The notes under the pieces: model-generated | The model's input: only the letters and a program-made list of their open reading frames with translations | Told to the model about the DNA's origin: nothing | Database searches by the model: none | Part shown: positions 24,175-52,500 of the stretch, piece by piece | Layout of the letters: each line of letters begins with the position of its first letter | Position numbering within the stretch: the first letter of the stretch is position 1 | Source: Phorcus lineatus | Taxonomy: Eukaryota > Mollusca > Gastropoda > Trochida > Trochidae | DNA: 64,000 nucleotides | Direction of reading: 5' to 3' | Assembly: GCA_921293015.1 (NCBI GenBank) | Contig: OV121092.1 | Span: forward strand, 5,400,001 to 5,464,000 | Program-made: the position numbers and the translations under genes

Positions 24175-24350
24175 TGACGTTTTGATAGGACTGATTTAGA
24201 GCAGACGTTTGGCAGACGTTGATAGAAAACAAGGAACTCACCGGTAAAAATCCATAACATAAACAGAGGATGTTTAAACAAACAACTCACTGTGACGACA
24301 GACAGCGGTCTCAGACCGTCCATACGAAAATGATGTTGTGATCATGATAT
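24175..24350 (+). repeat. Module A, copy 1 (unit W)
   Basis: This is the first of six copies of a module whose best-kept core is 'aaaatccataacataaaca' followed by 'gaggatgtttaaacaaac', then 'ctcactgtga', a 'cagacagcg' segment and 'gatgttgtg'. Other copies are at 30540, 36360, 36905, 42690 and 45835, all on the plus strand. The core includes two forkhead-like strings (ATAAACA and TTAAACAAAC). It opens the first duplicated unit, W. Confidence 0.65.
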
Positions 24351-25380
24351 GTAGGAATATGTTTATTAGACATTTATGGGCCAACTTTGTATTTTTTTCT
24401 CTGCTCCAATCATTTTCCAGTAATACTGATAATAAACAAAATCTGCGTTATAAAAGTATGTAAGTGCATCTTTAAACATGAAAATACAGATGCACCTTAT
24501 AATGAAAGAGATCCAACATAACTGGTAAAAGCGTTCTCATGTTCGGCATTTTAAATAGAGGAATGTGCACTTACAGCACAGAAACATTGTACTTGGGTCC
24601 ATTAACTCGATCAGCAAAAGCAAAATAAATGTCTTACAAACTTTACCACTTTTTCTGACGTTTCTAACTCAGAACGTGCGCCATATACTAATTATTGAGA
24701 TTTGAATAGGAGCAATATTTTCAAACCATACCCGATAATTGCCATGTTCTTGGATGGCAGCTGAAACTCTTAAGAAACAATATTTTGGTCTGACATGACC
24801 CGTGATTTCAACTAATTTCTGTCTTTTTTCTGTCTACACCGCAATTTGACTTCTTAAAATGTTAAACGTTTTCGATTTATTACAGGAAACATGTACATGA
24901 TGCGATGTACTTGAGAAGATAGAAGTCTGTTTAATGCTTCATGGTAATGATGTGGTATTTGCATTCTACTAGGAAAAACATAAAAGGAAGCTGTACATAA
25001 CAGAAAGAAAACATCAGTGACTTTAGGTTACTCAGGTTTTTGTTTATCAAGGATAACTAAATCACTATGAGAAGGCTAAACAAGCGTCATCATTAAAAAA
25101 AACCTTTTCACTTTGTTTATTAATTAAATTTGTTTCTGTTTATCATTTAACAAACCCAAAATTGTTGCATGAGCTTTATCTGGAAATGCATTTACATATG
25201 TACAGATATAGGAATAATGTTAAACATTACCTTGATCAAAACCCTGCATTTGATTTATGTTACAAGCATACCTTACGCTTCAAACCTAGATTTATATGAC
25301 AAATTGTTATGTGCAAACTTTCAAGAATTCATTGTGAACCATGAATATTACATGTCAGACATCTCCAAACCTGCGTTCTT
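24350..25380. other. AT-rich stretch with no supported gene
   Basis: No clear feature. The last 200 bases may be the far 3' part of the retrotransposon relic that follows on the minus strand. Confidence 0.4.
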
Positions 25381-25389
25381 GATTACTAA

Positions 25390-26000
25390 ATACTTCTCAG
25401 GATAGTCGTCATGTTTGATCATAGAACTGTGTATGAATATTTCGTGATGTCAATCTTACAGATATCTTATCTTTACCTCGTTGGTGAAATATTTCTGGAA
25501 AGTACTTTTGGATTTCAACAGGGGATACCCATACACATCCAAAGCTATTTTTAAAGGCAGTCTTCTTACCCAATTTTCATGTCCTGATTCATCAATTCTT
25601 TTAACTGTTAGAACACTTTCTCTTGTATCTAGACTGAGGTTGGCTGAGAAGCCTGGTCAAAAATGTCAAATATCTGCTAATGGCATATAAGATTAAAGGA
25701 TGTCGTCTGCACTCAGCTATGGTAGCTTTGTTAGGAGATCTAGAGCCAACTTTTAAAATAGTTTTACCCAAGTTGCCATGCACCTTTCAACAGGTTTTTG
25801 GATTTACCAACCCAATCATTATGCGCCATAGAACAAAGTCGGCTCTATTCTCACCTGACATATTTTAAAGCAAGCATTTACAATCAATTCTCTCCATGAA
25901 TGCCTCTTGGTAATAACTAATACATCAATTTATATAATCATATGAACAGAACTGAAAGCTTTTTGAAAGTTAACAAATTAAAAAAGTTGTTGCCCTTTTT
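25390..26000 (-). pseudogene. Decayed non-LTR retrotransposon, reverse-transcriptase fragments
   Basis: Read on the minus strand this gives ordered pieces of a reverse-transcriptase protein in shifting frames. At 25939-25977 lies 'FVNFQKAFSSVHM', matching the (F/Y)VDF-x-KAFDSV motif of RT block 3/A. At 25822-25848 lies 'IEPTLFYGA', matching the '(K/I)P-x-LLYG-x-E' region near the RT end. At 25637-25759 lies a helix-rich stretch with 'SPNKATIAECRRHPL' and 'LTRLLSQP', resembling the 'TPN-x3-xGELGR-x-PL' domain after the RT. At 25443-25612 'DESGHENWVRRL' is followed by an open run. The catalytic YxDD box between the first two pieces is deleted (only about 90 bases separate them), and there are several stops and at least two frameshifts, so it is dead. 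Confidence 0.65.
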
Positions 26001-26188
26001 ACGGAGGTTTGGTATAAAAAAAACAAAGTATGCAATAATATCAGGACCAATGTCGGAATTATTTCAGTAATGCGTTTATCGAGTTCACGCAAAGACATCC
26101 CAAGACATTCATATACAACATAAAAAGTACCTTGCATATTTCTGTATTTGTTAGGAAAAGAATCTTTCAAATAATCATTGATAGTCAC
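25970..26188 (-). pseudogene. Unrecognised coding-like frame upstream of the RT relic
   Basis: A 72-codon minus-strand frame (begins MTINDYLKD, contains LRELDKRITEIIP) overlaps the start of the RT relic and could be its upstream part in another frame. It is charged and more coding-like than most frames here, but I cannot match it to a family. It may also be an unrelated relic. Confidence 0.25.
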
Positions 26189-26189
26189 A

Positions 26190-27700: not shown

Positions 27701-27707
27701 GGTAGTT

Positions 27708-27761
27708 ACAAGATAACAAAGATGTTTATATGAAACAAGATAACAAAGATGTTTATATGAA
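27708..27761 (+). repeat. Perfect 27-bp tandem duplication
   Basis: Two identical adjacent copies (27708-27734 and 27735-27761) of a unit beginning acaagataacaaagatgttt. Perfect identity means it is recent, unlike the old duplications around it. Confidence 0.85.
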
Positions 27762-27879
27762 TATTTGATTATTGCCACGAACTCAGGTGTGTTTTGAGGC
27801 TATTTACTTTTCCCATGATCTCGTACCTGTTTATTAACAGGCCACTGGTCCCATTTCAGGTAGTTGGTGTCATGCGGTA

Positions 27880-29250
27880 CATACCAGCGGGATATAAAAG
27901 AAAATATGCCATTGATCTATCCAGATAGCGAAACACAGGAATTTTGTGGACGATAATAGACCTACATCTGCTGTAGTATTGTGAGAATAAACACTAAGTC
28001 ATTCGTGAACTTTTATTAGGGGCTTTTTAGAAGTGGATAAATCATGCCATATTTATTAAAATGTACAATTACAGAGGATACTAACGTTGTTGGTATCTAT
28101 CACTAATAAAATAAACCATTTAAAATTCTTCAAAAAGCATTTTTGAATGACCTCTTCATCATAAATGTGCCCTCAAAGATTATTCTACTAGGCAGTAACG
28201 CGTGTATTACAGAAGCAGAAACTACTCACTGTTTATTGTACCAGTAAAATTCGATTATGAGTTCAAAGTTAAAAGTCGAACATTTTACAAATATAAATAA
28301 AGACGTTCCCATATATGACAATTGGTGAAGCAACATATACTTCACATTGATCAATGTATCTGCAAACTTTAACGCAGGAATATCTATTGAATGTGAACAT
28401 ATTATTACGGGGTAAAAGATAATAGACTTCAGTTGATCAGACTGACACACAGACTAGGCAACTGTTTAATTTCTAATGTTTCCCAATACATAAATCGTTT
28501 AAGTTGATATTGATGCATGTCTTAGTACAATTTTCAAAAAAAACACCTCTTCAACGTATACAAATGTATGATAACCTGACACGATCACAGGTTATTGTTT
28601 CCGGTATAAACATGAAATTCTTATACTACAACATACGATTACTCTCTGTTTATTGTTCTAGAAACATTCGCAAACTTAGTAATTATGAGTTCACTTAGTA
28701 GAACATTTTAAAAATATCTAATTTTGAATTATGTTTTTAAAGAATTCGGACGCTACATGTTTGAGCAATTATATGAAAAGTTTCACTTCTGTGAATACGG
28801 TTCGATTTAAGGTTACCACATAACCACTTGTTAATTTTAAATTGACAAAAAAGTTATAACCAATAATTCTCTTAATTATCATCACCATCTTTCAACATTA
28901 TACTGTGAAGCAAATGGTTGGGAAGTGTGCATGTTCATAACCAAGAAATGTCAAAGTTTAAGTTTCGTTTTGTTTTTGCGTTCTTCTATTGTTTGACCTT
29001 TAAGATTGACATCTTATCGTTAGTTTCTCCTGTCTATTATGACAAGTATTGATGATGTTAGATGATGACCTTGTGTCTCACCCCTTCGTGAAATCCTTGG
29101 TATTCAGATAAGATCGCTGGTAACATTTGCTTTGCAGTAAGTAATAGTCGGATGTCTCGAACCAAACGGTATTGATGGCTCCAGATAAAGGAACACTGGC
29201 ATTTTTGTGGACGAAAATAGTCAGACTTTTGATTGTGTTCTACCAATGTA
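27880..29250 (+). repeat. Unit W: degenerate modules B and C
   Basis: Here 28570-28690 aligns with module B of units X and Y ('acctgac..gatcac', 'ttattg', 'tccggtataaaca'), with a TATAAA at 28605-28610. The stretch 29063-29245 aligns well with module C at 47817-48015 ('gaaatccttgg.attcag', 'taacatttgctttgcagtaa', 'gatggctcc.gataaaggaac', 'tttgtgga'). A second, worse copy of the module C end lies at 27930-27990 ('ccagatagcg', 'aattttgtggacga'). The order and strand match the other units. No frame is conserved across units beyond a minus-strand stretch shared by chance of homology. Confidence 0.55.
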
Positions 29251-29575
29251 ACAACACTCTTGTGTTCTAAAGAGGAAAAGCAACTTCTGATGTTATAACT
29301 TCACGAAACTAAAGAATATGAACGAAGAATTTATTAAGATACTTTTTCATGATACTATAACCTATATTTGCAACAAATCCAAAGAGACATATCCGATTAT
29401 ACCGGCGGCTCTATCATTTGTTACTTGTTTTTTAACCCTGGTAAAATATTATAATTATAATTATATTATCATGGCTATTAAAATTGTAGTGACCTATTGA
29501 TATCTCATTTGACATTTTAAATAGCTCACCAACCATTTAGAGTGTTTAGCCAGTTTATAGTTACGTAACTACTCT

Positions 29576-29578
<3 letters not shown>

Positions 29579-29612
<34 letters not shown>
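29579..29612. repeat. (AT)17 microsatellite
   Basis: Thirty-four bases of uninterrupted AT dinucleotide directly abut the inner side of the MITE end at 29615. It probably grew from the AT-rich interior of that element. Confidence 0.95.
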
Positions 29613-29614
<2 letters not shown>

Positions 29615-29615
<1 letters not shown>

Positions 29616-29659
29616 AGGAGCTTGATCAGCGGATTCAATTACACTAATGAAGCAGGATG
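29615..29659. mobile_element. Solo end of the 14.1-kb MITE family
   Basis: The inverse complement (from 29659) reads catcctgcttcattagtg, then taattgaatccgctgatc, matching the left end at 14105-14150 at almost every position. The partner end is not found to the left. The sequence passes straight into the AT microsatellite, so the other end is lost or deleted. Confidence 0.7.
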
Positions 29660-29669
29660 TGTGCATCTG

Positions 29670-30530
29670 TGATTGTTCACAGTTATGATGTTTCTGAAAT
29701 AGTTTTAATGATCACATCACCATTCAAATTATCAGCTTTTTGTTAAGTTATAAAATGTGCCAGCATGCAGGCAACTGTAATCATCCTCTGTAGACAACCT
29801 AATCATATAGGAAGTAACAGAATTAGTGAAAACACGTAACGGAATACAATATCATTTGCACTTTGAGTTAATGTTAGTCATCTAGATAGCTGTAGCCTTC
29901 AAAACTTGAGATAACACTGACTGAGCAGTTTCATCAAAGTGAGGCAAGAAATTTGAGCTTTTCTTTTAATTTTATATCATTTAAACAATCGTTTCTCGCG
30001 TGAAAATAAGAGTAAAGAATGTTTCAAAACAAAAGTGACAGATACTTTGGGGCTTTTGTTTAAAGAAATGTTAATATACAATTGTGTTTGATAACTTTTT
30101 ATGTCACACATTCCTAAGGGTAACTAATTAGTTTGAAAACAGTTAATGAAAAATGTATCAACAAGTTTATTTTTGATAAATGGTAATCAATTTGAAAGTT
30201 ACAGAATGCATAACCATCACATTAATCATAATGTAATCTCTTACAAAGTACATGTGATGTAATTTCTAAGAAATTAAATTTATTCACGAAATTATTTGCT
30301 TGAAATGTGAACTTTTGTTCAGGGGGTTTTGTGTAATAGTATTAATGTACCAGGAGAAATCACAGAGAAACAAAAGCTGAAATAAATCTGAACCATACAA
30401 AATTGAAAACAATTTGACAAATTTCATATTGATGTACAGGAGATGAGGTGTCAATTAGATATTAACTATTTATCAACATTCGTTTTTTATTTAATTAAAA
30501 TCTACTAATTACTGAAATGTTTTTTAAATG
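29670..30530. other. AT-rich stretch with no supported gene
   Basis: Nothing identified. Confidence 0.5.
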
Positions 30531-30539
30531 ATTTTTGCA

Positions 30540-30955
30540 CACACGCGGTAATTTGAAATGACAAGTGCATGCTTCATATATGTCTGTGTGCAATGATCAT
30601 CGCAATAATTATTCTTTAAATAGTATTTTCTAAACATATATATTAAAAAGAACGCGCACTGACAGAACGAAACCTGAGTATTTTGTCAAAAGAAGTTTTA
30701 TGTTACTATTATATACGTAAACATACATGCCCACATATGTGTGTAGTTGATGCGCACACTGACGGTTAGAGAGGGCTGATTTAGACATTCTCCGGGCGGA
30801 TGATGATTGATAACCGAGAGCTCATGGTAAAAATCCATAACATAAACAAAGAATGTTAAAACAAACATCTCACTGTGAGGAAAGACAGAGAAGACTCAGA
30901 CCGACCTGCCGATAATAATGTTGTGGCAGCACAAGAATGAAACAGATACGACGGA
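30540..30955 (+). repeat. Module A, copy 2 (start of unit X)
   Basis: This is the longest and clearest copy. 'cacgcggtaatttgaaatgaca' opens it, then 'tgtgtgtagttgatgcgcac', 'agagagggctgatttaga', 'gatgatgattgataac', 'aaaaatccataacataaaca', 'ctcactgtgagg', 'gacagag' and 'gttgtggcagcacaagaatg'. It aligns over 400 bases with 36360-36800 and 45835-46255. Confidence 0.75.
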
Positions 30956-32339
30956 ATTCGAAAAAAGGAAAACCCTTTTGAAATTTGAAAATAGTTTTTA
31001 TTCAGCTTTCACAAACGCCAACGAAACGAAAACTACATAACCAAACATATGCGTATAGGTGCTAGTGCTAACGCAGAGCTTGTCATGCTAAACAACAAGT
31101 AATATGTCATATGAAGTAGTTTACCTTTGCAGGTAAAACTTTTAAAAATACAAACCATCAATAATATCTTCGAAAGGTCCTGTAATAAAAAAGATATTAT
31201 GGTTCGAAGAGTGCAGGTTTTTGGCTCTTGGATGAGAAAGCCTGTTGCAGGATGAAAGGGAAATAGCTGTGCTGCGCATGCCCGACATTCACAGAACAGG
31301 TGGAATTAACTTGTAAAAATATAAAATGTAACAGGCAGTAACGGGGCATAAACAGATCAATAGTATTTAAACGGCTTTGACACATCCGATTGTGTAATAA
31401 AGGGGGAGGGGAGGGGTCTGCATGGGATTGGCAATTCTTTGATGTCTTAACAGAGAAAGCATGTTGTTTCAAAGAAATACATTGCTGTCTCCAGTCTATT
31501 CTATATGTCAACAATGTTTACAAGAGTCACCTAAACTATCGTTCATTGGTCAAACGGGTCAAATTCTATACAATGTAATGGAGCTAGCTAAGAGCCCAGA
31601 AGGGTATGATATCATAACGAATATTTTCACATTTTTCGAATATTTTCGCATTACGTTGATAACAATATCTTTTGAATAAAACTTTAATGATAATCTTGCA
31701 ATCTTGATTAAAGTCTAAAACTTACTGGTGTAAGCAAGTGTATCTTAAGATCGAAATGTTACACTTTGGTATAATGTTATCAAATATCATTAACAATTTT
31801 CACAGGGAGAGGAAATGTTGTGCGTATATTCATATTTCATGATTATATCAACATTAATATTTGTCAATACTTAAAATTTGCCAAATGATCGCAAAACGTT
31901 GTATAGTTCATTCATTAAAATCTTCATGAAAATATCATTAATTATTCCACACTAGTTGAAAATGTGGACCCATCATGGATCGTAATTATCCTTATAAAAT
32001 GTTTTCGATGTGATTAGTTATAGTTGGAAAGCTAACGTTGTGAAAAGAACAATCGAACTTTTATTATTTGGAGTCAATAAACCAGAAAGGTTTGCATGCT
32101 GAAAATGAGTTGTAAACGGTTATCACAGTTTGTTTACTATGACTATTACATGATCTTATTACATTCTTAATTCCTACGTTATCACTTAATTTTAAATATG
32201 TGCAGAAAATGAAGAAATATTAGATTACAGAACCAAATAAAATGCTCAAATTTAAGATAACACTACCGTATTAAACAGGAAATATTCGTTGCTTAAGCAA
32301 TTTTAGCATTTCAAAATTTCAAAATATTAGTACCACAAC

Positions 32340-32560
32340 AAAACACACCTCTTCTAAGGGTAAACGTACGGGAAAGGGATTCCTATCATCGTCAGGTGTG
32401 ATTTACCTGACAGGATCAGAGTCTGTTTATTGCCTCCTGGTATAAACACGACACTTTAACTGTACCACGCAGAACATAACAGGAACTTGTGTTTAACGTG
32501 AGTAGAAACATAAAACTTACTTCCTGTAGTTTGACGATATCTTCAAACATGACTCTTTAA
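32340..32560 (+). repeat. Module B, unit X, with TATA-like box and hairpin
   Basis: It aligns closely with 47285-47455. It contains a perfect 7-bp hairpin (32391-32397 with 32405-32411, loop gtgattt), 'aggatcagagtctg', 'ttattgcctcctgg', a TATAAA at 32441-32446 and a splice-donor-like AAC|gtgagt (GT at 32498). Module C, about 500 bases on, begins with an acceptor-like 'ttttcatagcag' (AG at 33003-33004). A promoter plus non-coding first exon is one reading, but unit Y lacks the donor GT (CAC|atgagt). Confidence 0.6.
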
Positions 32561-32939: not shown

Positions 32940-33600
32940 CTTGATAAAGGACAACTGCTTCAGGATGTTCAGAGGTCGGATTGCCGCTAACATTTTCATA
33001 GCAGTAAGGAAAAGTTGAATGATTTGAAACACACGTTTTTGTAGCTCCACATAAACTCAGTAATCGTTGCACACGAGGCAGACAAATTTTCTTTTCAGGA
33101 AAAATAATGTTTTTTTCAAGAGGTGAAGACAACTTTAAAGAAAGATAATCATATTTGTGCAGAGACTGCAGATATGTTACCAGCTGTGGTTCTCTTAAAA
33201 CTACTTGACTTAATTTTATGTAAAGTTGTACGATTTGCTTCAGGAATCAAACACATCCTGCAATGTGTATTTTAATGTATTCCATGTGATGTCTTTCCGA
33301 CCGGAACCAGAAGACTTGTGGATACAGCTCCAGGGGGTCCTCATGCATATTGTATGTTTAAACAATTTACGTTAGATGAATTTTCTTTCGTTAACATTGC
33401 TTTTAGTAATTCTTTCTGTTAGCCATTCAATTAAATGATAGAGAACAAACGGCACTAGTTTCAAGTAGTAATCTTTATGCTGAGAGTAAATACCTGTCCA
33501 ACTCTTTAAAGAGAAGCATATGTTCTCGAGCTGAAGGATGTACAGGTGTTCTGTGTTTAATGTGTTTCGGTATAATGTCAGCATGTATATATAGTTCAAA
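32940..33600 (+). repeat. Modules C and D, unit X
   Basis: Module C (32950-33110) shares 'gctaacattttc', 'gcagtaagga' and 'gaaac.cacgtttttg.agctcc' with 47880-47965 and 29120-29180. Module D (33350-33600) shares 'atgtttaaacaatt', 'cgttaacat.gct.ttagtaattct', 'tatgctgagagtaaat.cct', 'gagaagcat' and 'gctgaaggatgtacaggtgtt' with 48840-49050. Module D is also present in unit V at 39010-39160. Confidence 0.65.
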
Positions 33601-33659
33601 TAGATTCCATCTCTCAGGTATTCTATAGAAAAAAAACATTTGTTGAAGAAAATCAAGAT

Positions 33660-33846: not shown

Positions 33847-34189
33847 AAATGGTAGGAATTTATACCAGGTTAAAATTATTTCTTGTCCATCAAACCTTTT
33901 ACTCAACCACCAAGAAAATCCGTCAATAAACACTTTGATTGCAAGACTTAATCACTATTGTATTTATGAGATCTCTGCTTTTGGGTGAAATTCAAAATGA
34001 ACAATTATTTTTCAACAATAATGTTAACCTTTGTTGCCGTGTCAGACACAATCAAATATGATAGTTGTGGCAACGTGTCAATTCATGTTTCAAATTACAC
34101 ATAATTTCATGACTGAAACAGAGATTTATTCAATTTTTATAAAAGGTGTTTTCAAAATAGTTTTACTATGTGAGTACTGTGCCATCAGA

Positions 34190-34574: not shown

Positions 34575-35920
34575 ATTACGTTACGGACACTTTGTCAATA
34601 GGGCTACCATCATCCTCAATTTGAACCATTTTTCATAATGTCAGTTGTAGCAGTTATAAGTTTCTTTGGCCAAGGGGTTAAGTGCACACATTGTAAAACA
34701 AAGCAGGCATTTCCAGGCAATATCAAACCGGTAATGGAATGAAGTATTTGATTCGTTCTGACAACAAAATGACACGTGCATTCCACTAATAGGCACATTA
34801 CAGGAAATATTCAGAAATACTACCTTATTCGACTGATACCGACCTATAAAACCTTCAACCTGCTTTGTCGTTTCTAACAATGAGTCATTTTGAGTGCAAT
34901 GATGTGTTTCAGTCTTTTAACTTTTAAACATTGATTGTGTTTTTCAACGGGAACTATAGTTTTATAAATAGTTACCAGGTACAGAACGAAATGTGCATTT
35001 TACAAGTCCAAACATATTGTGAAAAATCATCACACATTGGGTTACCTATTACGATATGATTAAGTGTATACCTTATAGTTTGAAAAATGTTTCTTTCAAT
35101 TGCGAATCACTACAATAGTTTGAAGTTGAGGTTGAACTGTGCCAACACTAAATTGGCAACGAAGACAAGTTATGAACAACAACACTTCACAAACATTAAT
35201 AAACATTGATGAAAGTAGGACGAAAACGCGAATGTCTATATTATTTTTGTTTAAGTAGAAATTCTTTTTAAGAATTTATTACCCTCTCAACAAAGTTTTA
35301 AGTCCGTAGGTGGTTATGCTTTATATCTTGCTCCTCAATCGCTTGGATGAAAATGAGAAGAATAGTTTATGATTTCCATCAACAAAGAAGTTGTTTTTGT
35401 AAACGTAAGGTGTTGACAAGCTTTGATAGGTGAATGTATTTTTAAATTGCGTGTGTGTAGTGCCCACATCCAAAGTGCATTCTTTAGAAATTCTACCTAT
35501 CTAATTTACTATAACACTTCCTTAAATGTATTCTCCAAAAACAGGTTTACACTTTTTTGCTGATTTGGATGTTTTTAAAGGTAACAATATATGAGATGAA
35601 ACAAAATTAGATAGATGTAGGTGGAAAGATGCTAAAGTGAAATTAAAACATGAGTTTTTTACTATAGGCCAGATACTTATGATACACTACTTTTATTTAA
35701 CTAAACAATAATTATTGTATTGGTATATTAATGACCAAAGAGACACACACGGTTTTCAATCAAAGGATCATTGAAAGCTTTTGAAGGTTCTTGTTGAAAA
35801 TGAATAACCTCGAGACGTGGATATTTAAAACTGATTAGACACCATAGAAATATCTCATATACTAGTATATCAAGTAGCAACATAAATGCCGTATTCGAAG
35901 AAGAGTTATTGAAGTTCAAT
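34575..35920. other. AT-rich stretch within unit X, no supported gene
   Basis: A string near 34667-34680 resembles a tRNA A-box (tttggccaaggggttaagtg), but no B-box follows at the right distance. Nothing else was recognised. Confidence 0.4.
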
Positions 35921-35929
35921 AACCACATA

Positions 35930-36010
35930 GGTACACCAGACTCAAGGTGCCAAACACAAATGTACCAGTGTATGTACCAAAACGTTTTGAAGATAAAGAT
36001 GACCACACAA
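35930..36010 (+). repeat. Module J, unit X
   Basis: 'acaccagactcaaggtgcca', then 'aatgtaccagtgtatgtacc', 'acgttttgaagataaagatg'. It aligns with 42647-42715, just before the next module A fragment in each case. Confidence 0.6.
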
Positions 36011-36359
36011 GGAACACACAATCACAAATAACGTAACATCTATACAAATTCTCAGTTGTATTACATACAGAAACATTGGACTCTCTGGAAATTGTGTTGC
36101 GCTGAATAAATGTAAAATACTTATATTTGGTGCAAGGTTGGCTGTATGGTTGTTTTTTGTTAGACACGACATATAACCTGGGGCTGCTATAGGTTTTTAT
36201 GGATAGTTGCCGCCGTAAATATTTTGGCTATATGGATTCCCCACTCAAGTTTCAGGAACTCATAAACTTCCTACTTATATCACAGAAACAAACTTTCAAG
36301 CAGAAGTTTTTCATTCAATTATCTTTCTCTCATGAGTCTCAGAGTTTTCTTTTATGATT

Positions 36360-36800
36360 TTTGCACATATGCAAGTATTTCAAATGACATGTTTCATATT
36401 TCACCTTTTATGCAATATAATTATATACTTTTATGGAAAGATCAAAGCACAAAATATTCTTCGAATATAGATTTGCTTAAAACACATATACAAAAAGCCG
36501 CAGTGAAAGATAATTTACAGAAATTTTGTCACATTGAGTTTTAAGTGTTAATATATTCGTTAAACTACATCCCAACATACGTGTGTACTTGTTTTATAAG
36601 ACTGACGTTTTAGGAGGGCTGATTTCAACATTCTATGGGCAGATAATGTTTTATAGCTAGGAATCCAAGGTTAAAAATCCATAATATAAACAGAGAATGC
36701 CTAAACAAACATCTTACTGAGAATACAGACGGTACACTCAGGTCGTCTAGCCGATAATGATGTTGTGGCGGCAAAAAAAAGGAATACAATGGTTACAAAA
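36360..36800 (+). repeat. Module A, copy 3 (start of unit V)
   Basis: It aligns with 30540-30955 and 45835-46255: 'gatcaaagcac', 'aaaacacatatacaaaaagc', 'attcgttaaac', 'gtgtgtacttg', 'ggagggctgatttcaacatt', 'aaaaatccataatataaaca', 'gatgttgtggcggc'. A 70-codon frame here is not conserved. Confidence 0.7.
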
Positions 36801-36904
36801 GTTTTAGATATTTGAATGTATACAGCTGTGTCAAATTGCATTTTCAAGCTTCAATTAGAATAAGGCCTTTTTGAAAAAAATCATCGACGAAAACAACGAC
36901 CATT

Positions 36905-37175
36905 TCTAAACTATGTATTAGTTTTGTAAAATATACAGAAATTTTACTGTAAAAATCCGAAAAATGTGTGTAGTTAGTGCCTTTGTTATTGTTGACTTTT
37001 AGAGAGGGCTGATTTAGAAACTCACTTGGTAGATGATGACTAATAACAAGAGACTAAAGAGTAAAAATCCATAACATAAACAGAGAATGTTTAAACAATT
37101 ATTTTAAGGTGAGGACACAGAACTTTCAGACTGTCCAGCCGAAAATGCTGTTGTGGCAGGACAAGAATTGAAAAC
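36905..37175 (+). repeat. Module A, copy 4 (tandem second copy in unit V)
   Basis: A further copy follows copy 3 within 100 bases: 'gtgtgtagttagtgcc', 'agagagggctgatttagaaa', 'gatgatgactaataac', 'aaaaatccataacataaaca', 'ggtgaggacacag' and 'gttgtggcaggacaagaatt'. It is closer to copy 2 (30540) than to its neighbour in some stretches. Confidence 0.7.
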
Positions 37176-37179
37176 ATAT

Positions 37180-39005: not shown

Positions 39006-39009
39006 TTAT

Positions 39010-39160
39010 ATAACTATAAGTGTAGTTAACATTGTTGTTAGTAGTTTTGTTTGTTAGTAATAGATTAAATGGGAAAGAATTGCTATTGAATAAATGTCAC
39101 CAGTTTCGAGGGGTAATGTTAATGCTCAGACTCTTTAAGAAGAAGCATATTTACACCTCC
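39010..39160 (+). repeat. Module D, unit V
   Basis: 'gttaacattgttgttagtag', 'tttgtttgttagta', 'caattgctattga' type strings, 'atgctcagactctttaa' and 'gaagcatat'. It aligns with 33370-33530 and 48860-49035. Confidence 0.55.
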
Positions 39161-39594
39161 TGATGTGATGAGAAAAATAAGTAATACCCTTTTTATGTTT
39201 GAACGATAGCTAGACTAAATTATTACCATCCTAAATTAATGAACGGCTCGGCACAACTGTGCTTGTTTCTACCATTTACTTAACTTAGATCTCCTGGAGG
39301 TATTAAAAACTTAAATTCTAGAGATCAAATAATACTTTTCCTGACTATTGACATAATCATATCGTTAATATGTTAGGAAAGCGTTTGGTTTCAAATTGCT
39401 ATATTCAATCTTAATTGGGACAAACAAGTTTATTATCTGTTGTAATACCAAAATTAAATCCTATGAAATGTTGTGGAATAAGTCTTTAAATCATTACTGC
39501 AAACCGGACAGTTTAACAAAAACAGTTTTCACGAAAACTCATACATGCCAGTCATAATTGACTTGCACCTGAAAGTTGCTTTATCTTGTGTATC

Positions 39595-40250
39595 AAGCCC
39601 ACTTCAGCAATGTAGGAAAGTTCAAATGGAGATTATCTTTTTCAAAATTAAGTACCAACAGTCAAGAAAATAATACAGGTTTGAGGTTCCTGTATTTTTT
39701 ATCTTCATCACCTACTGGTTTGTAATAATTGATTCGTGTTCAAACAATATCTCACATACAATGTTCCAAATGTTTACTATTTCAAATTTGATAATTCATA
39801 GTAATTGATAGTTGATAGTCCATACTAACCATCGTTTATAGCTGAATGGTGTTAATGTGAATAATGGACAGATTTCAAGAATTAAAAACAAGAATTAAAT
39901 AGATAATAAGAGAAATGTTTGTAACAAATTCTTCATGAAACAAGGTCAAAACGCTAACCTTGTTGAACAGCTGTCAATAATCTAAGTTTGTTAGACATAC
40001 TTCAGTTTGTTATTTCAGGCCATCGACTTACAAATTGCACTAAAAGAACTTTTTACTAAAAAACATTTAGAAATCCATACGTTGTTTTTCAATTCAGGAA
40101 ATACAAACAAGGTTACTGCTATCATTTGTCACTTGAAACCTTTTATTGAGTCATCAATAAAATGAATATTCTTAAAATCCATGACCTGACTGTAATGCAA
40201 AGGTTGCTTAACAAACAAAATCTATGTTGTCAACTTAAGAGGAGAAGAAT
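39595..40250 (+). repeat. Modules E and F, unit V
   Basis: Module E shares 'cccacttca.ca.t', 'ggaaagtt', 'gattat.tt' and 'taccaacagtcaagaaaata' with 49930-50070. Module F (39930-40250) shares 'ttcatgaa', 'caaggtcaaaa', 'gttgaacagctgtcaat', 'ttcaggccatcgactt', 'cacttgaaaccttttattga' and 'aaatctatgttgtcaactta' with 50360-50645. This is the clearest V to Y homology outside module A. Confidence 0.7.
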
Positions 40251-40379
40251 ATACTTTCATGAAAATATGCTATTTTCATGAAAGTAATGGAATCTTTTAT
40301 CAGGTGGTTTGCAAATAAAAACGTATTAGTCTCAGAGTTTTTGCGGCCCTGTCCGACACTACATCATCATTTGTGATAT

Positions 40380-40950
40380 TAATGACTTAAACATTGCCTC
40401 ATTTCAGTTCAGTTGGTCACATCATTTAACACAGGCTTGCACAACCTCTTCAGCCTGCATAATTGCATAACTCCAAAAGAGATGGGAATGAGATAGTGTA
40501 AGCAATACAAGTGTTAACACCACAATGGTATTTTCAAATGCACCATGAGCATACTGCCAACATAGATAAGTACGCTATGTAAATGTCTGTATCATGAAAG
40601 CTATTTCTCACAGAGGGCTGCATCATTTACACACAGCTGGACATATACACAATATGTCAAGGGCGTTATGTCAGTTATGGTGAATGTGACGTGCATGTAC
40701 TGCTATGAAGCATTTTTATTTCTCATAAAGAATCATTCTGCTGATATTCTCTATCATATTGAAAATAAACTTATTATCATAAGTACTAAGCATATCTTTT
40801 CATCTGTCTTTATTCATTAACCGTTCATATGTTATTCATCTTGCTAGGGACAATTCAATCAAACAGAAAGCCGTTTATTTTATACAACAATTGAATTTAA
40901 TTCACATGCCTAAATGATGAATCGGTAAATTTGAAGATACTTCCCAGTAA
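40380..40950 (+). repeat. Modules G and H, unit V (empty site for the 51-kb transposon)
   Basis: It aligns with 50815-50946 joined to 52013-52500 in unit Y: 'tgcataattgcat.a..ccaa.a', 'gggaatgagat', 'caatacaagtg', 'catgagcatactgccaaca', 'gataagtac', 'cacagctggacatat', 'ggtgaatgtgacgtgcatgt' and 'caaacagaaagccgtttatttta'. At about 40512-40516 the alignment is continuous where unit Y carries a 1,062-bp insertion. Confidence 0.7.
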
Positions 40951-41644: not shown

Positions 41645-42590
41645 CTTAAACCTGCTTTATCTTTTTCAATCAAATAAAGTCAATGAAACGTTTAACTTAC
41701 AGTTTTATTTAGAACATCCGTTGGAATTGTAAATAAGTATTTTTAAACTTATTTTTGTGAATATTTACCAGATAGCGAAAGAAATGTATAATAACATCTG
41801 AACTGCGATCAAACATTTAACTACATATTATGTTATGGTAATATGCACGACTTCGATGTTTGTGTATCTATACAACTGTACAGGTGACATATAATGTGCC
41901 TGAAAATGAACTGAACCTGAAAGTTGTAATTATTTTTAGTTTTTGGAATGGGGCTCTCTTTAAAAGATGTCACTCTAGGTTTTTGAGTAGGTTCTTATCT
42001 CATGACAGGAAATGTATGAACGACCCCTAAAGAACAATTAAGTAAACATTCGACATAACCCATATACTCAAATCATATATACTTCTACATTCCCGTACAG
42101 TGCAAATTTGTCCTATATTGCACTTTGAACTGCTATTCGATAAAGGATTGCAATATTTTGTTTGATCAGAAACCCTCTGCTAATTGACTAAACAGAAGGC
42201 ATTTAAATCTAATTATTAGTTAGGTAGTGAAGAATGGTTGACCTAATTTTAACCAAATGTAATGTTTAGCAAGGAGAGGACAATAACATTAATATTCTTG
42301 TTTTGAAATGTGAATTATCATAAGTGAAAGGATGCATGTTACCTTTTATTTGATTGACCGGCTCCGTTTGTAAATAAGGTAAGAAAACATAATGACAAGT
42401 TGGAGGAATAACATGATTATAAAATGATTATGTGAAATTACATATAGTACGCTATACAACATTATCATAACTGCTGCGATAACAAGAAGTGATGGAAGTT
42501 GCAGAGTGCATAATGTGAAAACTGAGTTCAATATTCAAAACTAAGCAAACCACCTTACAAATATATCAAATACATAAACGCTAGGTAAAA
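41645..42590. other. AT-rich stretch with no supported gene
   Basis: Nothing identified. Confidence 0.45.
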
Positions 42591-42639
42591 ACAGAAGAAC
42601 AATATTTAAAGAACATGTGTTTAGATCAATGACAAAGAG

Positions 42640-42810
42640 AGTACACCAGATTCAAGGTGCCAAATAGATGTAAAAGTGTACTAACTAAACGATTTGCAGA
42701 TAAAGATGAGCACTGGAGAACGATTCCATAACATAAATAGAACATGTCCAAACAAACAACACCATAAAGAAACATCATACTCTCTGAAGATGACGATGTT
42801 GTTGTACCTA
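42640..42810 (+). repeat. Module J and partial module A (end of unit V)
   Basis: 'acaccagattcaaggtgcca', 'taaacgatttgcagataaag' matches 35930-36010. It is followed at once by a short module A core ('ccataacataaatagaacat', 'aaacaaacaac', 'gatgttgttgt'). Confidence 0.55.
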
Positions 42811-43129
42811 AAGAAATGGTAAATACTTACACCTACAATGATTTAGGGTTTTGTGCTAATGGATGTTATATAGTTTCCGGGTTTTCGAGGTACATATGAT
42901 GTGATGATGTAAGTGAGATGGAAGCATCTGTTGTTCGAGAGAGTCTAAAGTTCGAAGATTCTTTACATCATTATAGGATAACAATGTGGTTCAATTATGC
43001 GAAGAATGTATGTAATAAAACTATTATAGAATGTTGGACAGCAAATTAAATACATTTCAAATGATTAATATCTAAAGTAGATTGTAACTAATTCCAAAAT
43101 GTATGCAGCAACTGTCAGTATGATGCTAA

Positions 43130-43196
43130 TGTTGGTAAAGGTATATACAACGAAAATCTCTCTTAGTGAAATATGTAATCTTATGAAACAAGTATA
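43130..43196 (+). repeat. Single copy of the 67-bp minisatellite unit
   Basis: This is nearly identical to the four tandem units at 45262-45529. The preceding 'gcaactgt..gctaat' is also shared, so this is the founder locus or a copy of it, about 2.1 kb away. The next few bases after the unit (gttggtatagctg) show the start of a second unit that was not continued. Confidence 0.85.
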
Positions 43197-43487
43197 TGTT
43201 GGTATAGCTGCAGAACTGTAGCTATATGACCTCTTCCCCCAGTATCATCGAGTTTATAACTACAGAGTCTACACATGAAAAACCTAACCAATTTCCTTAT
43301 TCAATTGGTACCTTCTCTTTCAAGAGTCTTACACAACGAACATAACTGTCCTGTAACTATTCATTATCAATAAAATACTCTTCAATTGTTATGTATTATG
43401 GCCGCATATATTTTTGAAATATAATCATCATAATATTAGTTTTACCGTTTGTTTATTTTTACATTCACTGCAACTCAGCGGTACGGT

Positions 43488-45171: not shown

Positions 45172-45261
45172 ACAGGTTAGTTTTTCTAAGGATGAGTCTG
45201 CAGCCAAAAAGGCGACGTCATGGTATCAAAGAGCCTATTTTAGCGAAGCAACTGTAGCTAA

Positions 45262-45533
45262 TGTTGGTAAAGGTATATACAACGAACATCTCTCTTAGTG
45301 AAATATGTAATCTAATGAAACAAGTATATGTTGGTAAAGATATATACAACGAAAATTTCTCTTAGTGAAATATGTAATCTTATGAAAAAAGTATATGTTG
45401 GTAAAGGTATATACAACGAAAATTTCTCTTAGTGAAATATGTAATCTTTTGAAAAAAATATATGTTGGTAAAGGTATATACAACGAAAATCTCTCTTAGT
45501 GAAATATGTAATCTTATGAAACAAGTATATGTT
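45262..45533 (+). repeat. 67-bp minisatellite, four units
   Basis: Units start at 45262, 45329, 45396 and 45463, exactly 67 bases apart, each beginning tgttggtaaaggtatatac and containing 'ctcttagtgaaatatgtaat'. They differ at only a few positions, so the array is young compared with the rest of the window. The minus-strand frame over it (45295-45483) is a repetition artefact. Confidence 0.95.
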
Positions 45534-45834
45534 CAATTCCATTCTAACATTCAAAAGTCATAGCAGATACTAAATGCGTGTCAATGATATACTTTGTCTA
45601 TGACATGAGTAGTAAATGTTAGCATTTCTCGAGTGAGAGCCAGGAACATTGAAGGATACTTAGGCACGACTGTTGTAAACTTAGGATCTCACAGATACAA
45701 AGCTAATATTTTGTCTATTACCAAAGTCTTGATCTGAACTCAAAACATTCGTTTAGATGCAGAGCTAACTTAATCTTATGTTTTTCCTCCAGTCTCCTTT
45801 TTCACTTGACTATTAAAAATTCGTCTACATGCAC

Positions 45835-46255
45835 GCTGTAATTTCAAACTACATATTTAAGCTTCACTTAGAATTAAACTCCTATTCAATTTCCTTTGCA
45901 AAGATCAAAGCAGATTTCTCTTTGAATACTGATTTTTTAACAAACATGTACAGAAAATCGCGCTAAAAGAATGAAACTTAATACACATATATTTTGTCAT
46001 TAGCAGTTCTATGTAACTAATCTATTCGTAAACAGGCATGTCCAAAAACGTGTGCAGTTGGTGCAAATAAGTGCTGTTGAGAGAGAACTGATTAAGAAGT
46101 TCTCAGTTGGCCAGATGATGATTGATAACTAGGAAACCATGGGTAAAGTCTATAACATAAACAGAAGATGCCAATACAAACATTTGACTGTGCAGACAGA
46201 CATAACACTGGAACCGTTTGGCATATAAGGATGTTTTGGCAGCACATGAATGCAA
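45835..46255 (+). repeat. Module A, copy 6 (start of unit Y)
   Basis: 'aaagatcaaagcaga', 'acaaacatgtacagaaaatc', 'attcgtaaacaggcatgtcc', 'gtgtgcagttggtgcaaata', 'gagagagaactgatta', 'gatgatgattgataac', 'ctataacataaacagaagat', 'ttttggcagcaca'. It aligns end to end with copies 2 and 3. Confidence 0.7.
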
Positions 46256-47284
46256 TATACATTTGGATTTGATTACAGAAAAATTTGACCCTTGTTTGTC
46301 ATTTTGTATATTTCAGGTAAAATTCTCCTGCAGAATCCTGGTGTTCCGTAGACAAAGACAGATAAACATTCTCATTGGTTCTGACAGTAAATCATACTGT
46401 TTTTCTAGTGATTAGGAGTATCAAGTTTACTCAACTGAATAATCTTTCCTCAAAAATGAAAAGGAAGCACTTGAAAAAAAGATACAAGTCAAAGTAGATA
46501 ATGACAAATACGGCGGCTCTCTTTTTTTGAGAGGGTTAAAACACTAGATTTATTTAACTACTACTGTTGAAGTAAAAGCTATAATACCGTACCTCGATTA
46601 TATAAAATAGCTGATTTGAATCATGACCTTTTCATTGTCTAATTTAGACTCTTTTTTCATCAATAATATCAAAACATTTTCATTCATCAAATCTAATATC
46701 ATTGTCATTTGATTTAGGGAAAATATATTTTAAAAGTCTGATGCAATAGGGTGACATTGCCACTCTTCTGTAATAGAACATCACTTCAGTGCTTTCAAAA
46801 GTTTAGGTAGAACGATTAACCATAGGTATCTGACACATCGTTTCATGATATTGGGAATGGTTTTAATGCATGGATGTTGACTTACAATGGAAAAGGGCCT
46901 TCATCTTGTAACAGAAAAATCAGACACTTATGATTTCCAAGCAAAGATTTGAATGCCGAAGAAATGTTGTTAATGAATATCACAGTTTGGTCATCAATAA
47001 CTTCTATACTTCGGGAAATTTCTAACTTTTACATCTTTAATTACATCGCTTGTTTTTTCAGGTGAAACAAAAATATGTAATGAAAAAATACAGATTGATA
47101 TACAGAATTTTTCTAAATGTTATTATTCAAAACGGAATGGGACATTACCATTTGAAAGAGTAAATGGTTAAGCCTTTTTTAAGGTATGGTTTTCAAAATA
47201 AGGGTTATACTAATGAAACTTCTTGGTCAGCATAATTATAAACATTTCTGGAGAGTACAGCAACAAGAAACACAACTTCTGACA

Positions 47285-47455
47285 GTAACTGTTCCGGAAA
47301 GGGATTCCCAACACATGCAGGTGTGATTTACCTGCGAGGATCAGAGTCTGCTTATTGCCTCCTGGTATAAACACACAATTTTACTGTACTTGGCGGAAGA
47401 TAACAGGAACTTGTGTGTCACATGAGTAGAAACATAAAACTTACTTAATTGCCAT
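47285..47455 (+). repeat. Module B, unit Y, with TATA-like box and hairpin
   Basis: It aligns with 32370-32525 at high similarity, including TATAAA (47366-47371) and the hairpin (47317-47322 with 47330-47335). The hairpin keeps its pairing by a compensatory change: the T-A pair at 32392/32410 in unit X is G-C here (47317/47335). The splice-donor-like GT of unit X is AT here. Confidence 0.65.
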
Positions 47456-47799
47456 TTGAGCACAGCTTGGAGGGTTTAATTAATTAAAAACTATAGCGTG
47501 AAATTAAGGGCAATTAAAGTCGTGTTTCATCATCAGTAGAACTAGATATGTTGCATGTAGAAAGCAGTTCAGTTGGTTAACATCCTGTTGATCTTGAACG
47601 ATCTGATTTATAATGACATAGCATAATCCCCTTTCAATGCCTTCATGATATTATGAATAGAATATACTTAGATAGTTTGTGTTGATCAGCAAGAATAAAC
47701 CATTCCTCTGTTCCAACTTTGAAACCCTCTTGGGTTTTCAACCTTTTTATATGAAGTGACCTTAATTTATCATCTCTCCTCATGAATGTTCTGCAGCCT

Positions 47800-48015
47800 A
47801 TTATGACATGTGTTTCAGCGTTATCTGAAGAGCCTGTGCCTCGACCTCTCTCTGTGAAATCCTTGGCATTCAGGTTGTTCCCAGGTCGAATTTCAGCTAA
47901 CATTTTCTTTGCAGTAAGGAATAATCGAATGACTCGAAACAAACGTTTTTGATGGCTCCTGATAAAGGAACTCAGGAATGTTTGTAGAGGAGACTGACTT
48001 ATGATTTTGTTGTAC
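47800..48015 (+). repeat. Module C, unit Y
   Basis: It aligns with 29063-29248 (W) and 32950-33110 (X). It contains an acceptor-like 'cattttctttgcag' (AG at 47913-47914) kept in all three units. The minus strand carries a 132-codon frame (47643-48041, includes FRVIRLFLTAKKML), a version of which is open over 60 codons in unit W (29058-29246) but not in unit X, so coding is not supported. Confidence 0.6.
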
Positions 48016-48834
48016 CTAAACCCAAGGCTGTTATGTTTCAATATATGAAGACAACGTAAAAAGATATTTCCAAAGCTGAGGCACTTATTAAAATATTTGA
48101 CAATTTCATATCTTTAAAGTTGAACGATTTGCATAAGAAATCCTGAACGTATAATATAATATATTTCATCTGGTGTGTTTCACATGGTGCCGTAAATTCC
48201 GACCGAAACAAGGAGAAACCTGTAGACTTGTGGCTACAAATGCAGGCATGATTGATCAATGTTTATCAAGAACGTTATCACAACCTTTTGATTAACAAAT
48301 GTGACTATTTTGCGCTGTTTAAGCAAAGGAAAGAGATAAAAACGTTATTTCAGGAGACTGACATTGACTGGAAATGACTACCTTCTTTGTGTGTTTTTTA
48401 ATCAAGCCAAACTGTTACAACATTAATTTTTCATTAATGTTTACTATTAAATGCAATTAAATATCATCAGATGTACTTTTATTTACCATTCTTCCCATAA
48501 CAACCTTATTATAATTCTACGATTGTTTGAATTCATAATATGATATGTAAAACATGCCTTCAATTGCGATGATGTTGAATTCAGTTGAGGTGCTTTTAAG
48601 ATAGACTTGCTTTTAAAGACATTAAACCTTAAGTAAGAGAAGACATTGGACATGTATTAGCGTGGCTTCAGCGGCAGGTTCGTCATATTTAGCAAAACGA
48701 AAGTAAATTTAATCAATGAAACTAAAACTCTGACACCTGATTTCTAATGACATTCGTTTCTTAATGTCCTTCAAATTTCTCTCTAATTTTGTTCAGTGCT
48801 TCCATGAAAGCTTAGCAGGCTTCTTCTTGCATGC

Positions 48835-49070
48835 ATTATGTTTAAACAATTTTATTGCATAACTTTGAGTGTCGTTAACATCGCTCTTAGTAATTCTGTT
48901 TGTTAGTCATCGAATGAAATGAGTAAGAATGTGAAACAATTGCTATTGATGTGATCGCACTAGTGTACAAGAGGAAATGTCTATGCTGAGAGTAAATGCC
49001 TTTCAGACACTTTAACGAGAAGCATGTGTACTCCGCTGAAGGATGTACAGGTGTTCTTTGCTCAAGGATA
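48835..49070 (+). repeat. Module D, unit Y
   Basis: It aligns with 33350-33600: 'atgtttaaacaatttta', 'gtcgttaacatcgctcttag', 'taattctgtttgttag', 'tatgctgagagtaaatgcc', 'gagaagcatgtg', 'gctgaaggatgtacaggtgt'. The 187-bp MITE that follows module D in unit X is absent. Confidence 0.65.
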
Positions 49071-49919
49071 TGTCTCGATACACGATCTTCACGTGTTTCG
49101 TTATGTTTTCAATGGAACTATCCTGTAACAGATATTGAACATTTTATTCAAAGTCTAAAATAATATTTTACTTCCACTGATATAAATAACAGAAAAAGGC
49201 AATTCACGTACTTTGTTTAAAACTGTTTCATATCAATTATTTTCCTTTAGATATTATTTTATACAGAGACAGAAAAACATAAATTGTACGGCTCGTGGTT
49301 AATTTATTTTGTTGTTTATTTCAGATAATATAAGAATTTAAAATATTTGATATTAATGAAAAACAGGCTTTGGTGTTTGAATCAAAGATACACTAAAATA
49401 TGATCATCTTACATTGATGTATAGGTCGAGAAAACTTTCCTTGTGCAAATATTGTGTATTTCTATCATTTAGTGATCTGAAATCTCCCAGTTTTATTATC
49501 AGCTTAAATCCCATTGGTCAAACCAAAATATTCAAATTATATGAAAGTGTTGTCCAAAATTGTTGTGTCGAGTTATAATCTGTAATAAATTGTTTCAGAA
49601 TGATCATTTTCATCTTAAATTCTAGTGGTCAAAATATATTACTCCTTTTGTTCCATTTGCTAGGTTCATGGTCAATGTCCAGTCATAATGTTAGGAAACT
49701 TTAACGTACTTTTCCGTTTAAATGTAAATATGAGTTCATATTAATTGTTTCCGAATCTGTCTACAAGTTTATACTTAGGCATAACATTTGTCAAACAAAC
49801 TGAAACAAAGCAAAAAGTTTAAATTTTTACTGCATCTAAAAGTTTTTTTTTATGATAGGATATGTTTATCTAAACAGTGTTCATTGTATCTATTCCAAAC
49901 TTGCAACTGAGAGTTGCAT

Positions 49920-50650
49920 ACTTTTTGTGTATCTACGCCCACTTCACCATTCAAGGGCCAAGTGAACCAGAACCCATTTGACAGTATGTAAACAAGGAAA
50001 GTTATTTAGGGTATGAAAGATCCCGAGCTGAAGATTATTTTGTAAATACCAACAGTCAAGAAAATAATCTACGATTCAGCAGCCTGCTGTTATAGTAGGT
50101 AAAGGGCCGATGGACAAAGCTAACCATCAATTGGTATACCTTATAAAAATATATCTGGAATTAACTATAACAAACATTTAATATTCAAGGACAATTTAGT
50201 CTGTTACTTTTGTAAATCAATTCAAATTTTGCTAACGTTTCCTCCGTATGCCATAATAACCATCAATAGTCTACACTAGTCTGTACATAGTAACCATTAT
50301 AATTAACTGAAGAGTGTTTAACGGTTTTGCACCGTTGTTGATAATTTTGGCCAATAGTTACTTCATGAATTATCAAGGTCAAAAAGGTAACTCTGTTGAA
50401 CAGCTGTCAATTTGATATTTCAGGGCATCGACTTCAAGAATTGACTAAAAGAAGTGTTCACTCTGTAATGAGTAATCCATCTGCTGTTGTTGAGTTAAGG
50501 AAATAATGCAAAGTTAAGGCTATTTCTTTTCACTTGAAGCCTTTTCGTGAATCAATGCAATGAACGTCCTTCAAAACTGTTAGGCTGGCTATAATCATGT
50601 GAAACGGTTGGCTAGCACATAAAATCTAGGTTGTCAACTTCAGATGTTCC
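49920..50650 (+). repeat. Modules E and F, unit Y
   Basis: It aligns with 39595-40250 in unit V over most of its length, with 'gttgaacagctgtcaat', 'atttcaggg.catcgactt', 'cacttgaagccttttcgtga' and 'aaatctaggttgtcaactt' as anchors. Confidence 0.65.
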
Positions 50651-50948
50651 AATTCCTCTTACATAGATGAGCTTTTATTGACATATGCTCCTTTGCATTC
50701 CTCAGATATTTGCTATCTGATGAAATTTGCAATTCACAACATCTTTAATGTTTTACAAATGTTACAATATTTTTGCTGCCCTCTCCAGTACTACGTGAAA
50801 TAGGATATTTGTGGCTTCAACATTGCACTAATTCCGCTAAGTGTACATGGTTAGAACCTAAAGGTCATATGATTGATTATTGAAAAACCTAACAGTCTGT
50901 AATTGCATGACACCAATAAAGCTTGGAATGATAATAATGCAAGTAGTA

Positions 50949-52010
50949 GGGCAAACTGACCGAGGTTCGGACACCACCCGAGGTCGCCCGAACTTCGGAC
51001 ACTTTTGACTAGGAGCTGACGCAATAATAAGTGCATTGTCGGCAATAAACTTGTTTTGAAATATGAATTTCAAGTATGTCAATTTATTCCTTTCATTAAA
51101 TAAACAATTGATCGTAGGTAGTATATCTAATCGACATTTTGCTATGATGTACAAAAAATAGATCCATGTAAGAAATTGGCAAAATATTTGTTTCAACGTA
51201 AATGTTGACTATCAGGTTAGGACATATAGGAAGCTCCAAAACATTTTAAACTGTATTCATAAACAATGAGAAACAACCAAAGAGTTACATTGTACTGATG
51301 TTGGTAAATATAAAGGGGATATGTAAGTGAATGTAGAGATATTGATAATATGTCAAAATGACCTTGCTTCGGACAGTTTTGACCATGGTTCGGACACTTT
51401 TTATATTTCCTTTATACTGACTTGTAATGCTGTAATTCAACCAACAAAAGTTCTGGAAACATGCAATAACATACGACTAACATATTTCACAAAGTTATTA
51501 ATTTTCAAAACATACGGTTTAGCGAGTACGGCGTTATTGTGTCTAACGCCTACGAAATTGATTGTGACGTCATAATTTTTTAACGACGCATGCGGCAGTT
51601 TTGGGAGAATTTAACATCGGAAAGCATGCTCTGTACAGATGACAAATTAATTCATCTTTCCGAAAAACCTTGATATTATTGTACATGAACTACTCACTGC
51701 GTGTTTAGGAATGTCTGAGATCATTTTGATAAATATCTAAAGCTAAGGGTGCATGCGAGAATATTATGTGCAACTGTCTGAAGGTAGGTCAGAACTGTCC
51801 GAACCTCGGGCGATTTCATATAGGCAATAAAAACCGTTCTTTTCGGTAAATTTACGAACAATTCTGCATTTTATATGGAGATCCAAAATAAATATTTACT
51901 TTTTTGATAATTTAGTTTGCTCATCTTTACATTATTAAAATAATATTTTATAATGCAGAGTTTCAAAATATTTGAATCGATACAGTGTCCGAACCTCGGT
52001 CAGTTTGCCC
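50949..52010. mobile_element. Non-autonomous DNA transposon, 1,062 bp, 26-bp perfect TIRs, TA flanks
   Basis: The ends 50949-50974 and 51985-52010 are perfect inverted repeats beginning GGGCAAACTGACCGAGG. TA lies just outside both ends (50947-50948 and 52011-52012), consistent with a TA target duplication. The motif TTCGGACA is repeated six times: direct at 50966, 50994, 51368 and 51389, and inverted at 51796 and 51986, including second inverted-repeat pairs just inside the ends. These look like transposase-binding repeats. No transposase is encoded. An 82-codon plus frame (51327-51575) has no known domain. The surrounding DNA is module G of unit Y, and unit V has the uninterrupted site at about 40514. 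Superfamily is uncertain. Confidence 0.9.
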
Positions 52011-52012
52011 TA

Positions 52013-52500
52013 CGTGTGCTCACATCAGGGTGATGTTTTCAGTTGGGTCATGAGCATACCACCAACAGTGATAAGTACAGCTATATGAATATCTTCATCA
52101 TCATAATTATTTGTCGCTGCACCATTCACAACACAGCTGGGCATATGAATAGTACGCCAAGGACGTTGTAAGGTTTATGGTGAATGTGTAAGAGTTAAGG
52201 TGAAAGTGACGTGTGTGTATATATGGCTAGAAAGCTAGCTTCGATAAGTTACGTCTGTCTTGACATACAGAACCATAATGCTAATAGTCCCTAATAATAG
52301 TAAGAAATGATAAAAGGTACAAGATATTCTTAGAATATATTTTCTACCGTCTCTATTCATCGTTCGTACATATACTTGTTTTAGGTTTGGATAGGCCAGG
52401 GTCAATGCATACAAACAGAAAACCGTGTATTTTATTATACACATGAATCTTAGTCATTAGCCTAATAGATTATATCGGAGAAATATCGTTACGTTTATGA
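52013..52500 (+). repeat. Modules G (right part) and H, unit Y
   Basis: It continues the alignment to 40515-40950 after the transposon: 'catgagcataccaccaaca', 'gataagtaca', 'cacagctgggcatat', 'ggtgaatgtg', 'aaagtgacgtg', 'acaaacagaaaaccgtgtat'. The left part of module G is at 50815-50946. Confidence 0.65.

Follow-up and report, generated by a model that had tools for sequence, protein, structure and literature searches.

What keeps parts of an array recognisable when the DNA between them has drifted almost beyond alignment and no gene is shared by its copies? This question is raised by a tandem array in Phorcus lineatus at 24.2–52.5 kb of a 64,000-nucleotide stretch, hereafter the window, which comprises bases 5,400,001–5,464,000 of contig C19 in a genome of 958 Mb and 74 contigs; the array thus lies at C19:5.424–5.452 Mb. 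The window has a G+C content of 33%, a CpG frequency of 0.71 of expectation and a longest stop-to-stop frame of 183 codons. A preliminary description, made from the letters of the window, proposed four units (W, X, V and Y) sharing modules in one order and strand, and offered duplicated enhancers, a duplicated noncoding transcription unit or the introns and spacers of a gene family as readings. The tandem array is confirmed here, and its tandem, ancient, single-locus and noncoding character is supported. We give about an even chance to the reading, drawn from sequence comparison, that old local tandem duplication produced the copies and that purifying selection kept the islands within them as cis-regulatory elements.

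Units, islands and spacers of the array

Self-BLAST of the window and unit-by-unit comparison placed four diverged units at the proposed boundaries, W at 24.17–29.30 kb, X at 30.53–36.13 kb, V at 36.35–42.83 kb and Y at 45.84–52.48 kb. Parallel same-strand off-diagonals, whose absence the preliminary description had named as contrary to its proposal, join all four units. The six unit pairs gave 32 direct matches and 3 inverted ones at E ≤ 0.01, in contrast to a total of 11 direct and 18 inverted matches, or about 3 per replicate, from ten dinucleotide-shuffled replicates of the six pairs. Whole-unit MAFFT alignments, in which some unit pairs came out no closer than with two units reversed, were kept out of the rates.

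The units are collinear copies, their modules recurring in one order and all on the + strand, as had been described; module A is the sole module common to all four, and the others occur in two or three units each. Module A lies at 24166–24435 in W (core 24253–24281), 30528–30946 in X (core 30836–30864) and 45841–46259 in Y (core 46151–46179). It is doubled in V (36.4–36.8 and 36.9–37.2 kb), with copies at 36354–36788 (core 36680–36708) and 36887–37195 (core 37070–37098) that are 390 bp apart. Modules E and F are both found in W, X and Y. Module E (24849–25016, 32329–32522 and 47254–47446, respectively) includes the best-kept island of the array, with 83% identity between X and Y over 194 bp, and the W copy is 61% identical to that of X; module F occupies 28951–29296 (67% to Y), 32959–33083 and 47712–48067. 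Module G is present in X (33334–33590), V (38975–39132) and Y (48818–49098), and three modules are shared by V and Y: H (39169–39340 and 49348–49533), I (39592–40507 and 49991–50948, with weak traces in X at 33854–34071, E 0.001 and 7e-6) and J (40498–40931 and 52003–52484). The end module K occurs in X (35821–36125) and V (42531–42831), and the copy in V also contains a further, diverged A core, the sixth in the array, at 42727–42755 (42.73 kb).

The similarity among these copies is patchy, in keeping with the earlier claim: most of each copy has drifted close to saturation, and islands of about 80–400 bp have stayed recognisable. For 18 similar-length spacers between consecutive islands, mean identity was 0.666, versus 0.632 after shuffling and 66–89% in the flanking islands, a comparison that favours the spacers because their identity was taken over aligned columns only and gaps were counted as differences in the islands. 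The spacer between E and F illustrates this pattern, with lengths of 436 bp (X) and 422 bp (Y) and an identity of 0.639 versus 0.615 (sd 0.028) after shuffling, between islands of 83% and 77%; the difference between the E island and this spacer has p ~1e-6, as computed with the identity rounded and the number of columns approximated. Islands are thus better kept than spacers as measured between paralogous copies. Spacers that keep their length and lose their letters beside islands that keep theirs form the pattern expected of selection on the islands. A similar picture could arise if mutation were strongly uneven, if local conversion came later or if spacers had been replaced.

Within module A, the conserved columns are themselves clustered, the observed value being reached by 29 of 10000 column shuffles. 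The core of this module, CATAACATAAACAGAG.ATG...AAACAAAC, contains two putatively forkhead-like sites (TAAACA/AAACAAA). Among conserved aligned 6-mers, TAAACA/TGTTTA comes first in the array, with 6 occurrences versus 1.0 expected, and ranks 7th of 1427 6-mers in the surrounding region defined below, where TTGACA/TGTCAA and ACTGCA/TGCAGT lead. Because the copies share ancestry, such over-representation values are too optimistic, and we treat the motifs as leads to candidate binding factors.

Recent gene conversion between neighbouring A copies was considered and is not supported. The two A copies of V are 68% alike whereas each is 71% like that of X, so the islands are unlikely to owe their preservation to recent exchange between adjacent copies.

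The modules were confined to the array when the genome was searched. Five module queries (194, 354, 995, 1421 and 321 bp, 3,285 bases in all) returned copies inside the array only, the 995-bp query also giving a 35-bp inverted match within itself. The 29-bp A-core pattern matched 22 places genome-wide at up to 3 mismatches; the six with 0–2 mismatches are all in the array and all on the + strand, and the 16 with 3 mismatches fall outside it, compared with 8 matches for a reversed-pattern control. This search does detect dispersed repeats, as shown by two other queries that matched many contigs, and it misses weak copies, such as module E of W (61%) and the diverged A core at 42.7 kb, so very diverged copies may exist elsewhere. 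Given that modules and core are confined to it, the array is not an interspersed repeat, and the high-copy family that the preliminary description had named as the contrary outcome is not what was found. The further units that it suggested seeking beyond the window did not appear: within 100 kb on either side there are none of this array, with just short repeat fragments matching there.

Local duplication around the array

Comparison of the array with its surroundings, a 274-kb region at C19:5.300–5.574 Mb (5300001–5574000; window coordinates −99999 to 174000), revealed that local copying is widespread. Counting as local pairs all matches of 60 bp or more whose two members lie 2–25 kb apart, we found 150 direct and 12 inverted copies (sign test 2e-31, for pairs that are not independent), with a median identity of 74% and covering 17% of the region. 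Copies of mobile elements will account for some of the pairs, perhaps in a number similar to that of the inverted matches (12). The local copies fall in five spans, at −98 to −40, −37 to 19, 24 to 52, 66 to 105 and 115 to 174 kb, with 29, 28, 22, 22 and 49 pairs, respectively. The third of these is the array studied here, and the fifth reaches the end of the region read, making its extent a lower bound. Six flank control blocks, scored as permissively as the units, gave 15–52 matches each and so exposed these other arrays. Part of the second span (−37 to −6 kb) resembles a duplication in two copies, offset by about 14–16 kb.

A single informative control of three hints that local duplication is a property of this region. 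That control, C2:30,005,400–30,010,000 (4.6 kb), contained no local copies, its nine other matches being distant and all confined to query bases 1–135; windows of 4.6 kb lacking any local copy make up 65 of 1347 in the region. The 10-kb control from C2 and the 3-kb control from L041 were swamped by mobile-element matches. Another stretch, L045, had no direct pair in its 10 kb, and since the same is true of 108 of the 264 windows of 10 kb in the region, it says nothing on whether the duplication is regional or genome-wide.

Selection and its alternatives

The copies, with their shared order, strand and single location, show repeated ancient duplication of a noncoding stretch of about 6 kb, head to tail, locally and on the same strand; neighbouring DNA was duplicated likewise along at least 274 kb of the chromosome. 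The likeliest cause of the retention of the islands would be purifying selection on them as enhancers or other factor-bound elements, which would share the core with its two forkhead-like sites and have their target gene beyond the sequence read; additional copies would supply redundancy, dosage or freedom to diverge. Among the three readings first offered, duplicated enhancers would fit best because islands are kept between nearly saturated spacers and the core is kept in six copies, and the introns and spacers of a gene family are weakened by the lack of exon-like shared frames in the 274 kb and by the absence of the modules elsewhere.

A related reading, that the array comprises the remains or introns of a tandem protein-coding family whose exons are diverged, dead or elsewhere, has on its side that gene families typically form tandem arrays on one strand and that fast-evolving families can keep introns better than exons. 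However, no Pfam domain scored above the cut-off in six frames of 24.0–53.5 kb (one match below it, E 0.059), ten chosen open reading frames of the window and right flank gave five below-cut-off matches in four proteins (best E 0.0011), and ten frames in the flank copies gave none. Codon-phase bias was seen in 8 of 136 local direct matches of the region at p<0.05 and in 3 at p<0.01, where chance would give about 7 and 1, and in 1 of 18 matches within the array. Indels divisible by three numbered 93 of 660 across the region and 9 of 76 in the array, and two phase-biased matches inspected by eye have stops in all frames. We found no exon-like frames shared among copies in the 274 kb around the array, in which no gene was recognised, although spliced genes with short exons might escape; the protein-like frames of more than 130 codons in the region resemble, by eye, mobile elements. 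These frame, phase and indel checks uphold the statement that no reading frame survives in all units, and the array, with no sign of coding in its sequence, appears noncoding; with its modules also not found near genes elsewhere, a coding family is improbable. A duplicated noncoding transcription unit, that is, a long noncoding or small RNA locus with islands as exons or processed RNAs, is somewhat less so, though still unlikely. It would be consistent with splice-site-like strings read by eye, TTTTCTTTGCAG in module F of Y and TATTTCAGG in module I of V and Y, and with a few windows that fold better than shuffled columns. These folds are the best of many windows tested, most of them weak, and two have z below −4: the module A window on the + strand (z −4.6, 60 shuffles), with a consensus energy of just −3.2 kcal/mol, and the module J window on the − strand (z −4.2, two sequences only, 60 shuffles). 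No Rfam family reached its gathering score (three below-threshold matches were seen) and no tRNA was found in the window, its flanks and a further stretch, L044. The arrangement of all units on one strand, which would suit a transcription unit, is uninformative because tandem duplication yields it anyway. Repeated tandem insertion of a low-copy mobile element might draw on the fragments, by eye those of mobile elements, that are common in the region. This reading is rejected by the genome-wide copy counts, since the five queries and the core pattern gave no copy outside the array save the 3-mismatch matches near control level, and we regard it as close to refuted.

The main rival is neutral decay at uneven rates, to which we allow a real but lesser probability. 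Here a duplication-prone stretch without genes copies locally, its copies decay without function, and the islands are slower-mutating, later copied or converted, or indel-escaping parts. Several results favour this rival or weigh against selection on the islands. Local duplication extends across the whole region, a pattern also compatible with neutral turnover, and duplication needs no selection here because direct copies are frequent throughout the 274 kb. Modules are missing from some units, A alone being in all four, so selection on the others would have been lost or never present in some units, and nested copies such as the two A modules of V permit different ages. Column clustering fails for seven of the eight modules (E, F, G, H, I, J and K, whose values were reached by 1015 to 8041 of 10000 shuffles), partly because module edges were drawn around similarity. 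Not all spacers are saturated, as 7 of the 18 exceed their shuffles by more than 2 sd, with two below the mean. The forkhead-like excess is lost after correction for all 6-mers, from copies that are not independent, and searches of the genome for homeobox and forkhead domains, the two families sought, gave no match near C19:5.4 Mb among the matches listed. According to a finding cited in PMC4008492, ultraconserved elements are depleted in mammalian segmental duplications, which would make tandem copying of conserved elements unusual. Against the neutral alternative stand the equal-length spacers near shuffled level beside islands of 77–83%, the A core kept in six copies at 0–2 mismatches, and the fact that the closest likeness among the A copies is not between the nearest two.

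If selection did keep the islands of this array, the neighbouring spans might hold similar families of paralogous, selectively kept regulatory islands along at least a quarter-megabase without recognised genes, with enhancers multiplying like gene families without the copying of a gene. We offer this extension tentatively and consider it rather doubtful.

Known systems, candidate factors and repeats

Ordinary local (segmental) tandem duplication without function is head to tail, same-strand and restricted to a single locus, and the array is alike in all three respects. Unlike such a duplication, it is unevenly kept, with islands of 66–89% between spacers near shuffled level. Local tandem duplication of noncoding DNA is a known kind of event, and it is the enhancer function of these islands that is putative. 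Vertebrate duplicated conserved noncoding elements are likewise noncoding islands recognisable in several copies; as described in PMC2781166, they are found close to paralogous genes and attributed to whole-genome duplication early on, whereas the array copies stand head to tail in a stretch without recognised genes and their islands were compared between paralogs only. The word 'tandem' is absent from that paper. A model for the duplication and loss of conserved noncoding elements is also described in PMC4008492.

Drosophila offers a parallel in that regulatory modules there arise via local sequence duplication, with binding sites up to about 50 bp apart (PMC3188502); in contrast, the array has units of 5–7 kb, islands up to hundreds of bases and putative binding. 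It also resembles shadow enhancers in consisting of multiple related elements with a possible common target gene, but those are defined by shared activity (PMC7556877), whereas the array is known from its sequence. A literature search by title and abstract returned no report of kilobase-scale tandem arrays of gene-less paralogous noncoding islands, although such reports may exist. If the islands are regulatory, they would represent an enhancer family made by tandem duplication without a gene, in which enhancer birth, divergence and loss could be read in one genome with the adjacent arrays serving as replicates. Should the islands be neutral, the locus would remain an example of same-strand local duplication far above inverted copying and a warning that old paralogous noncoding DNA can mimic conserved elements.

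The searches for candidate factors placed the nearest homeobox matches on C19, among those listed, at 3.41 and 7.28 Mb (150 of 354 candidates scored), and gave 55 forkhead matches in the genome. At least ten homeobox matches on one strand lie within 1 Mb of C17, a group that may be a Hox cluster.

Other groups of matches were seen in passing. At C11:13422931–13527257, at least 21 homeodomain matches lie all on the − strand. Of these, 18 share one E-value, with intervals that are mostly multiples of about 2.8 kb, which suggests that a homeobox-coding unit is repeated there, nearly unchanged, in a large tandem array. Twelve forkhead-domain matches fall within 115 kb at C1:15.40–15.52 Mb; both strands are represented, and one match is partial and contains a stop. 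At C16:2.008–2.031 Mb (five matches) and C12:36.983–37.003 Mb (five of six), a forkhead-like domain lies in open frames of 554–595 codons on mixed strands, perhaps representing a mobile element or a local gene expansion.

Several repeats were also observed. A 67-bp tandem repeat of about four copies lies between V and Y (window 45261–45533), with an outlying copy 2.1 kb upstream at 43125–43207, the copies being 94–100% alike. A dispersed, putatively SINE-like (short interspersed element-like) repeat occurs at 4611–4736 and 58128–58378 of the window and on both strands in the flanks. Finally, a short dispersed repeat occurs at −48342 to −47846, 149376–149865 and 162336–162797 in window coordinates and at L045:5179–5286; a piece of about 110 bp is 97–99% identical on several other contigs, and on account of this identity the repeat was probably mobile recently.

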